Shown: piece after piece, positions 49,958 to 54,795 of the stretch
How positions within the stretch are numbered: position 1 is the first letter of the stretch
How the letters are laid out: each line of letters begins with the position of its first letter
Source of the DNA: an uncultured Erysipelotrichaceae bacterium
GTDB lineage: Bacteria > Bacillota_I > Bacilli_A > Erysipelotrichales > Erysipelotrichaceae
Reading direction: 5' to 3'
NCBI GenBank assembly: GCA_947569705.1
Contig: CANOSP010000001.1
Location: 124,001-188,000 of the forward strand
Length of the DNA stretch: 64,000 nucleotides
The notes under the pieces: model-generated
The model's database searches: none
Told to the model about the DNA's origin: nothing
What the model saw: only the letters and a program-made list of their open reading frames with translations
Translations under genes and position numbers: made by a program

Positions 49958-52516
49958 GTGATTCTCGGTTTATTTGCACATGTCGATGCGGGCAAAACAA
50001 CATTGAGTGAAGCTTTGCTTTATGAGTGTCATGCGTCTGATCACTTCGGCAGAGTCGATCATCAAGATGCTTTTTTAGACTATGAGGAACAGGAACGTAA
50101 GCGGGGAATCACCATTTACACCAAAGAAGCACGTTTTACATGGAAAGATCGGGAATTCACGTTGATTGATACACCGGGGCATGTTGATTTTGCGGCACAG
50201 ACAGAGCGAGTACTGCCGATATTAGATGCGGCGATTTTTATTGTCAGTGCAACACAGGGCGTACAGGCACACAGCGAAACACTTTGGCAGCTGTTGAAAA
50301 AGCATCATATTCCAACTTTTCTGTTTGTGAATAAAATTGATATTACCGATTCTACGCATGAGCAGCTGATGCAGGAATTAAAAACATTTCTTGATGTGAG
50401 ATGTATTGATTTCAGTCAAGAGGTTGAATTGCACGAAGCGATTGCGATGTGTGATGATGAACTGCTGGAACATTATATCGAAAACGAATTATTTTCTGCA
50501 AAGGAAATCACCGCATTGATTCATCAGCGGCGAATCTTTCCGTGTTTTTTCGGTTCGGCTTTAAAGCAGTCCGGTATAGATACATTATTAGATGCATTAA
50601 CTTCTTACAGTGAAGAAGGGAAGTATGCACAGGAGCTGTCAGCCTATGTGTACAATATTTCTTATGATGCTTCGGGAACACGTTTAACACATGTGAAGAT
50701 TAACGGCGGCAGTATTGTCAATAAGCAGCTGTTATTTGATGAAAAAATCGATCAGATTCGCTGTTATCACGGAAATGATTATACCTGTGTGAACAGTGTC
50801 GAGGCAGGGAATGTCGTTGCATTGTGCGGACTTAAGCATACAAAAATCAAAGAGTCGCTGCATTTTCAAAGTGAAGACTTTGCGGCTTGTATATCGGCTG
50901 CCTTCCTTTATCGCTTAGTACCGCCTGCGGGCGTGGATAACGCGGAGATGATGAAAAAGCTGCAATGGCTCATTGAAGAGGAACCGACTTTGCAGCTTCA
51001 TTATGATCAACAGCTGAAGGAGATTCGTTTACAGCTGTATGGGGAAGTTCAAAAAGAAGTGCTGATTGAACGCATCAAACAGCGCACCAAAATCGTTGTC
51101 AGCTTTGAGGAAGGAAGCATCGCTTATCAGGAAACGATCGCTTATCCGATAGAAGGGGTCGGACATTATGAGATGTTAAAGCATTATGCCGAGGTGCATT
51201 TACGCTTAATTCCGTTAAAGCGCGACAGCGGTTTAAAATTCGCCAGTGTGTGCCCGCCTCAGATGATTCCGGCTGCGTCTCAGCGAATGATTCTTCATTA
51301 TCTTCAAACCTCATCCTTAAGCGGTGTCATTAACGGCAGCCCGCTCACTGACATGGAAATCGTGTTAATAAGCGGCAAGGTTCATGAGAAGCACACATCG
51401 GGAAATGATTTGCGGGAAGCGGCGTTACGGGCGTTACAACAAGGCTTACAGATGGGAAAAAGTCTGCTTTTGGAACCGACGGCACACTTTCGTTTGTCAA
51501 TCCCGGCGTCTGCGTTTGCCCGTGCCGTGTATGATTTGGAACAAATGCAGGCAACATGGGATCCGCCGATTGAGATAAAGGATCAGCTGCGCATCAGCGG
51601 CAAGGCACCGCTGTCGCAAATACATAATTATTCATTTACTTTACGCTCTTATACAAAAGGCGAGGGAAATCTGTTTTTGAGTGTAATCGGCTCTCAGATT
51701 GTCAATGATCAGGCAATGCTTGATCGCATGGCGCATGAATACGCTAAAGAACATAAGCATTTAAGCAGTTCCTTGTTTTTGATTCAGGGAGCTCCGACTT
51801 ATATTCCTTATGATCAGGTGCTTCAATACGCAGATGTTAAACTCATGGAAACGATTGAAGACGACAGTGTGAAGTCACACAGTGTCCATCGACAGATCAA
51901 AATCGATGACGATGAATGGAAGCGAGTGGTCGCTAAGCTGCATCAGCCGCGGAAGCAATATCATGAGCGTATCGATCATCAAGCAGAACCGCCGCAAAAA
52001 CAGCGAAACGTATCAAGGCGAAAACCGCCGTGTTTGATCGTCGACGGCTATAATATGATTTTTTCATGGCCGCAGTTAAAAGAAACGGCACAAAACTCGA
52101 TTGAGAGCGCGCGAACGGAATTGATTTCCATGCTTGTCAATTATCACGGTTCACAAAAAGGTGAACTGATCGTCGTGTTTGATGCATATCGCACCGATGC
52201 CGTAAAAGAACACATCGTTAAAGATCATACCATTCATATCGTTTATACAAAGCAGGCACAGACTGCCGATGCATATATTGAAAAAACGACCCATGCAATA
52301 TCGAGTGATTATGAAGTGACGGTCGCTACTTCAGATCGCGAAGAACAAAATGTTATCCTTGCGCAAGGGGCAATGCGGATGTCAGCGGATGAACTGTACC
52401 GAAAGCTGCAAATTCAGCGCCAAAACGAAGCGGCACGCACGCTCTATGAGCCGCAGTATCGAAATCAGCCCTTGTCCGGCTTACGAAAATGGAATGAACA
52501 GAATGAAGATGAATAA
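49958..52516 (+). CDS. TetM/EF-G-like ribosomal GTPase fused to a Rae1 (YacP) endonuclease
   Basis: This 852-residue protein joins two ribosome-acting modules. Residues 1-650 resemble ribosomal-protection proteins (TetM/EF-G family): G1 AHVDAGKTT, G2 RGITI, G3 DTPGHVDF, G4 NKID, and EF-G-like domains II-V. After a basic linker (about 655-688) the C-terminal 150 residues match YacP/Rae1, the NYN/PIN-fold nuclease that cuts mRNA in the ribosomal A site of Bacillus. LIVDGYNMIFSWPQLK, VVFDAYRTD, QTADAYIEK and VTVATSDREEQ carry the acidic active site. A factor that enters the A site and delivers the cut is the obvious inference. Tetracycline protection is possible but not implied. Translation starts at a GTG behind AGAGGGTG. 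Confidence 0.88.
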   Translation: MILGLFAHVDAGKTTLSEALLYECHASDHFGRVDHQDAFLDYEEQERKRGITIYTKEARFTWKDREFTLIDTPGHVDFAAQTERVLPILDAAIFIVSATQGVQAHSETLWQLLKKHHIPTFLFVNKIDITDSTHEQLMQELKTFLDVRCIDFSQEVELHEAIAMCDDELLEHYIENELFSAKEITALIHQRRIFPCFFGSALKQSGIDTLLDALTSYSEEGKYAQELSAYVYNISYDASGTRLTHVKINGGSIVNKQLLFDEKIDQIRCYHGNDYTCVNSVEAGNVVALCGLKHTKIKESLHFQSEDFAACISAAFLYRLVPPAGVDNAEMMKKLQWLIEEEPTLQLHYDQQLKEIRLQLYGEVQKEVLIERIKQRTKIVVSFEEGSIAYQETIAYPIEGVGHYEMLKHYAEVHLRLIPLKRDSGLKFASVCPPQMIPAASQRMILHYLQTSSLSGVINGSPLTDMEIVLISGKVHEKHTSGNDLREAALRALQQGLQMGKSLLLEPTAHFRLSIPASAFARAVYDLEQMQATWDPPIEIKDQLRISGKAPLSQIHNYSFTLRSYTKGEGNLFLSVIGSQIVNDQAMLDRMAHEYAKEHKHLSSSLFLIQGAPTYIPYDQVLQYADVKLMETIEDDSVKSHSVHRQIKIDDDEWKRVVAKLHQPRKQYHERIDHQAEPPQKQRNVSRRKPPCLIVDGYNMIFSWPQLKETAQNSIESARTELISMLVNYHGSQKGELIVVFDAYRTDAVKEHIVKDHTIHIVYTKQAQTADAYIEKTTHAISSDYEVTVATSDREEQNVILAQGAMRMSADELYRKLQIQRQNEAARTLYEPQYRNQPLSGLRKWNEQNEDE

Positions 52517-54258: not shown

Positions 54259-54795
54259 ATGAAAGTCCAAATTTACGGAAAAAATATATCCGTTACCCCG
54301 GCGATTGCCGAAAAGATTGAAGCGAAGCTGAATCTTTTAGAGAAATATTTCATCATTGATGAATCGGCGGTTGCCAATGTTGTTGTCAGAGTATATCCGA
54401 CAAAACAAAAAATTGAAGTAACCATCCCGACTAAGTTTGCGGTATTGCGTGCAGAGGTTGTTCATGATGATCTGTATGCGGCCATCGATTTAGCAGTGGA
54501 TAAATTAGAGGATCAAATCAGACGGCAGAAAACACGCTTAAGCCGTAAAAATAAAGAAAAACTGGCAATGGCATTCGTGGAGCCGGAAATCATTGAAGAT
54601 GATTTTGAAGAAAGCGATGAAGAAGTAGTAAGAACCAAGACGATCACACCGGAGCGCATGGAGCTGGATGAAGCGATCATGCGTATGGAAATGTTAAATC
54701 ACTCATTCTTTATCTATCGTGATATTGAAACTGATGAAATCGCGGTTGTGTATAAGCGTCATGATCGCGGCTACGGTTTAATTGAAACAGAATAA
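54259..54795 (+). CDS. hpf: Ribosome hibernation promoting factor, long form
   Basis: Long HPF dimerises 70S ribosomes into inactive 100S particles in stationary phase. The 178-residue product has the N-terminal RaiA/HPF domain (about 1-100: QIYGKNISVTPAIAEKIEAK, and YAAIDLAVDKLEDQIRRQKT near its end). A charged linker (about 100-125) leads to the C-terminal dimerisation domain (about 125-176: TPERMELDEAIMRMEMLNHS and FIYRDIETDEIAVVYKRHD). Length and order are typical of Firmicutes. AAAGGAGG precedes the ATG. It is monocistronic, with a terminator after it. Confidence 0.96.
   Translation: MKVQIYGKNISVTPAIAEKIEAKLNLLEKYFIIDESAVANVVVRVYPTKQKIEVTIPTKFAVLRAEVVHDDLYAAIDLAVDKLEDQIRRQKTRLSRKNKEKLAMAFVEPEIIEDDFEESDEEVVRTKTITPERMELDEAIMRMEMLNHSFFIYRDIETDEIAVVYKRHDRGYGLIETE

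Follow-up and report, generated by a model that had tools for sequence, protein, structure and literature searches.

Proteins that join a translational GTPase to an RNase domain in one chain have been described before. In ten Clostridiales, Atkinson 2015 (PMC4342817) described 'Tet' proteins with a fused NYN domain and proposed that they function as RNases. The earlier note on the DNA studied here (the window, by which we mean the whole analysed stretch of 64,000 nucleotides) had described a fusion of this kind; the fusion is real, but the combination of GTPase and nuclease is not new. What is new is the extent of the fusion, a separate GTPase clade in which it is near-universal, the empty rae1 position, a strictly invariant active site, and a failed test for membership of the Tet family. 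The description of 2015 also predates the work on Rae1, which dates from 2017. Rae1 reportedly cuts mRNA in the A site of Bacillus subtilis ribosomes (reviewed in PMC12320835; PMC6613710), and its gene adjoins yacO/rlmB, with which it is co-transcribed (PMC6613710).

The gene in the window (49958..52516, + strand) encodes a fusion of a translational GTPase and an NYN_YacP (Rae1) domain, and runs from a GTG at 49958 to a stop at 52516. A Shine-Dalgarno-like AAAGAGGG sits just 5' of the GTG, and the preceding gene ends only 17 bases before the fusion gene. The 852 residues are encoded in a single unbroken frame, in which all motifs quoted in the earlier note were found. The product begins with a complete five-domain EF-G-type translational GTPase; a conserved carboxyl-terminal extension and a flexible linker then lead to an intact Rae1/YacP nuclease domain, all encoded on the same strand. 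The G domain (residues 3-218, 49964..50611; Pfam GTP_EFTU, 2.8e-50) carries the P-loop AHVDAGKTT, the switch I motif RGITI, DTPGH with the catalytic histidine, NKxD, and GSALK, which are retained in the aligned relatives with rare substitutions only. Motifs G1-G5 with the catalytic histidine and domains II-V, which together define an EF-G-like translational GTPase, are all present. Domain II (residues 227-300, 50636..50857) gave a weak Pfam EF-G_D2 match below the gathering score and is built of beta-strands in the AlphaFold2 model; the matches to GTP_EFTU, EFG_III, EFG_IV, EFG_C, and NYN_YacP all exceed their gathering scores. Domain III (residues 321-384, 50918..51109; EFG_III, 3.1e-9) and domain V (residues 504-585, 51467..51712; EFG_C, 2.3e-10) flank domain IV (residues 387-499, 51116..51454; EFG_IV, 1.7e-14), the arm expected in the decoding centre.

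Alignment revealed three regions in which the GTPase half has a sequence of its own. The loop I region of domain IV (residues 400-414, 51155..51199) has the signature GxGHaEpLrHYAEVH, unlike Tet or EF-G: H409 and E412 are invariant (56/56) and L407 is found in 55/56 rows, and these residues are absent from Tet and EF-G. In the loop III region (residues 473-488, 51374..51421; consensus GKAHxKHTEGGDFREA), Tet has YYSPVSTPADFR and EF-G has SYHDVDSSEMAF; the fusion family has HxKHTEGGDFRE instead of SPVSTPADFR, and thus not the SPV that marks Tet loop III at the domain IV tip. Domain V is followed by a clade-specific carboxyl-terminal extension (residues 586-631, 51713..51850; consensus NPxGSIFCxHGAGxxVxWDEV), which is modelled as a helix plus hairpin, and in which S605, F607, and G611 are present in at least 55 of 56 rows and absent from Tet and EF-G.

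The flexible linker (residues 632-691, 51851..52030) was assigned from low pLDDT. In the AlphaFold2 model, built from 38 relatives with a mean pLDDT of 82.5, values below 50 occur only in the linker (632-648 and 662-686) and in part of the carboxyl-terminal tail (831-838); because the pTM is 0.63 and the linker is disordered, the placement of the nuclease relative to the GTPase is unreliable in this model. Between the two disordered stretches, a short helix is modelled at residues 651-661 (51908..51940; family consensus DEELxRxFxxTYG), and this helix-like motif was matched in 50 of 54 relatives. MAFFT put the helix (window 51908-51940) in one column with the carboxyl-terminal helix of Tet proteins, in a segment too short to tell homology from coincidence. 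Against the closest relative, the dN/dS values of the GTPase (0.08) and the nuclease (0.12) indicate purifying selection on both halves; that of the linker (residues 651-691) is 0.61. An assembly artefact or a chance frame was ruled out by a second genome with the fusion at 92% identity, by this selection, and by the full layout in 36 of the 38 nuclease-bearing genomes sampled.

The carboxyl-terminal domain (residues 693-829, 52034..52444) had been assigned to the Rae1-type nucleases, and this assignment holds. It matches Pfam NYN_YacP at 7e-44 (150 bits, against a gathering score of 24.6), and only one kind of solved structure was matched, that of B. subtilis YacP (Rae1; 5MQ8/5MQ9, E of about 6e-26, with 5MQ8 the best at 5.7e-26). 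Fusion residues D696, N699, D742, D771, S792, and D793 correspond to D7, N10, D53, D81, S103, and D104 of Rae1. Loss of the acidic active site across homologues had been named beforehand as an observation that would count against the assignment; all six of these active-site-type residues are invariant in the 44 aligned relatives (44/44), shortened and split members included, which rules out a degenerate nuclease.

Apart from the fusion, no NYN_YacP domain was detected in the host genome. In B. subtilis, rae1 lies before sigH. The corresponding region of the host has the order cysS, mrnC, rlmB, a sigma-like gene, secE, and nusG, with 12 bases from the end of rlmB to the sigma-like gene (rlmB was named by profile and the others from their sequences). 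Among the 19 genomes examined, the host and 18 more with or without the fusion, none had a rae1 gene between rlmB and the next sigma gene. In our preferred reading, the fusion has replaced stand-alone Rae1 in this bacterial group.

To see how far the fusion extends, we surveyed 392 genomes drawn evenly from one phylum, with one genome per species. NYN_YacP scored above the cut-off in 38 of these and was paired with a fusion-type GTPase in every case (38/38): 36 carry full fusions, one lacks domains IV-V (G095), and one is split over two ORFs (G263). A reverse search with the GTPase half gave matches in 99 of 148 genomes of the order, in frames of about 750-930 codons, enough to hold the fusion; the exceptions were contig-edge fragments, the split gene in G263, and one genuine Tet (G346). 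The fusion is old and the rule in the sampled group, and near-universal within its GTPase clade. Pairwise identities of the two halves are correlated (r = 0.78, with 0 of 2000 permutations as high; 0.72 without pairs above 60% identity), and a single ancient joining followed by shared descent is the simplest account. One genome contains three equal-scoring copies exactly 71,006 bases apart (G523:C1 2304870, 2375876, and 2446882), which reflects either a 71-kb segment present three times or an error of assembly. Full fusions were also found in two unannotated faecal records labelled 'Bacteriophage sp.' (L078, MT835563.1; L079, MT835514.1), the former of which has a neighbour resembling the peptidoglycan-binding gene of the window. 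Both may be bacterial contigs mislabelled as phage.

Departures from the full layout were found on both sides of the linker. In the G095 variant (L067 7843-9627), a single frame has lost domains IV and V; it still encodes the G domain, domains II and III, an intact nuclease, and the linker helix. Its relatives within the genus have the full length, and an assembly error is possible in this one genome. In G263 (L068 5527-8018), the GTPase and nuclease ORFs overlap by four bases, with the break at the end of the linker, and a close relative (L069) is fused. Ligilactobacillus salivarius encodes, on plasmid pMP118, a GTPase-only protein of 644 aa that retains the extension without the nuclease (L077 5977-7911); its gene lies directly next to an rpsN (S14) copy, likewise on the plasmid, and a gene annotated 'putative metal homeostasis'. 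This protein nests inside the fusion clade and has a four-residue insertion in common with its neighbour L078, so that it looks like a case of nuclease loss. As many genomes of the family do not have the gene at all, it is dispensable, and the G095 and L. salivarius proteins indicate that neither arm is always needed. A dispensable gene with separable parts limits any claim that both parts must act together.

We favour the reading that the fusion is a self-contained ribosome factor, which would cut A-site mRNA on stalled or slow ribosomes with the help of its GTPase, and which would include the replacement of Rae1. The idea of a one-protein ribosome factor survives from the earlier note; in our judgement the favoured reading as a whole has about an even chance of being correct. 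That the protein represents a distinct GTPase family, apart from both Tet and EF-G, that uses GTP to bring its own Rae1-type nuclease into the A site when a ribosome has stalled is a more tentative proposal, plausible but with the balance leaning slightly against it. We infer ribosome binding, A-site cutting, the order of events, and the trigger as follows. The EF-G-like half would recognise a ribosome whose A site is accessible and bind the factor site in its GTP form, and GTP hydrolysis would clear or reset the A site. Withdrawal of the GTPase arm could then let in the tethered Rae1-type nuclease to cut the A-site mRNA. The host has a tmRNA, which could afterwards release the ribosome on the truncated mRNA. 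EF-G-type GTPases place domain IV in the ribosomal A site. Since Rae1 is expected to occupy the A site of the 30S subunit just as domain IV is, the GTPase arm and the nuclease would probably take turns rather than act at once; the hand-over between them is a conjecture. The covalent link of Rae1 to a GTPase suggests that both halves work on the same ribosome, and it offers one molecule for measuring which comes first, GTP hydrolysis or mRNA cleavage. If the more tentative proposal is right, the fusion would to our knowledge be the first GTP-driven, single-protein rescue factor that cleaves A-site mRNA, replacing stand-alone Rae1 across a bacterial order.

The order of events could also be reversed, with the nuclease cutting first and the EF-G-like half then translocating, evicting the nuclease, or aiding ribosome recycling. 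This is the main rival, although we consider it unlikely. It fits the EF-G-like architecture and the results of Foldseek, which grouped the model with EF-G and EF-G2 structures; the top fold match, among many EF-Gs, was mitochondrial EF-G2 bound to a ribosomal subunit together with recycling factor. Most fusion members also keep a histidine at the position of the tip histidine of EF-G domain IV. However, the tip loops of this domain carry their own signature, unlike EF-G, tmRNA already provides a route for ribosomes on truncated mRNA, and the order of steps cannot be read from sequence.

Cleavage of mRNA, as we propose for the fusion, is what has been described for characterised Rae1, which cuts mRNA during translation. 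Atkinson 2015 suggested testing the clostridial fusions for the ability to act as an RNase on rRNA (PMC4342817), and a nuclease that cut rRNA or tRNA, either in the decoding site or where translation factors bind, could damage or mature ribosomes. The nuclease is Rae1-like by both profile and active site, however, which makes such a target improbable here.

Marginally less probable again is a role in antibiotic resistance, with the fusion acting as a tetracycline ribosomal protection protein that has gained an RNase. Several records are annotated in this way, and an RNase-based resistance mechanism was proposed by Atkinson 2015 (PMC4342817). Loop III, too, has the same length in the fusion and in Tet, and Tet(M) with the substitutions S508A/P509A/V510A can stay active (PMC4750697), so that the difference in loop III alone does not exclude tetracycline protection. 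Against this, the fusion scores 366.7 bits on the curated Tet model NCBIfam NF012153, where the cut-off is 775 and EF-G of the same host scores 365.9; genuine Tet proteins in the same family score 816-970 bits. EF-G is thus just as close to the Tet model as the fusion. In the GTPase tree, a quick search without bootstrap, every fusion falls into a single clade, separate from TetW and from a genuine Tet of the same family, with an SH-aLRT of 100 on each stem. At least nine related genomes contain a genuine Tet together with a fusion-length GTPase frame (G102, G425, G430, G441, G465, G476, G485, G506, and G519), and the host carries two separate EF-G-type genes besides the fusion. The context of the fusion is of a chromosomal type, the 17-base gap leaves no leader of the tet(M) kind directly upstream, and only 2 of 72,556 plasmid records match over at least 80% of the fusion. 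Of the earlier description as a TetM/EF-G-like GTPase, the EF-G-type architecture therefore stands, while the TetM framing fails on a score of half the cut-off and equal to that of EF-G, on the different loops, and on the coexistence with real Tet proteins. A true Tet protein appears to be ruled out on the NF012153 score, the tree, and this coexistence. One further genome has an intact fusion and also a Tet-type gene (G305:C6 86951-88770) that was matched as two overlapping segments, the first of them interrupted by a stop; it looks like a decayed tet gene.

Relatives are recorded as 'TetM/TetW/TetO/TetS family tetracycline resistance ribosomal protection protein' or as 'translation factor GTPase family protein', and these names bear out the suspicion that annotation as tetracycline resistance would hide the role of the protein. 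A gene class that is common in gut Firmicutes is thus counted by annotation as tetracycline resistance, whereas the curated resistance model rejects the members tested.

Beyond the genus level, no conserved partner gene was found near the fusion, which fits a protein that works alone, as our preferred reading of a self-contained factor would have it. Two genes downstream (window 54259-54795) lies a gene for a long-form hibernation promoting factor (S30AE plus carboxyl-terminal domain), in an order kept only within the genus. A structured RNA or attenuator nearby was considered and rejected, with no Rfam match and just the short upstream gap. Translation-arresting nucleases are common in defence systems, but with no PADLOC model match and no conserved partner neighbourhood, an anti-phage or abortive-infection effector that halts translation is the least probable explanation, and a very improbable one.

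Among known systems, TetM, TetO, and TetW have the same EF-G-derived five-domain GTPase architecture, but the fusion reaches only half the curated cut-off, has other sequences in loops I and III of domain IV, and has a different and longer carboxyl-terminal extension, with no mobile context seen. EF-G resembles it in domain architecture, GTPase motifs, and an equal score on the Tet model, and differs in its loops and in lacking the extension and the nuclease. B. subtilis Rae1/YacP (5MQ8) belongs to the same nuclease family by sequence, with all conserved acidic and Ser/Asn active-site residues in common; there, it is a small stand-alone protein encoded beside yacO/rlmB, whereas here it is the carboxyl-terminal domain of a GTPase. 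Closest of all in layout are the fusions of Atkinson 2015, which likewise join a Tet/EF-G-type GTPase to a YacP-like NYN RNase domain in one chain. Those were described as Tet proteins with an acquired domain and tied to resistance or rRNA cleavage, whereas the fusion described here is near-universal in a GTPase clade of its own, reaches across Erysipelotrichales-type genomes, is rejected as Tet by the curated model, and occurs where stand-alone Rae1 is absent.
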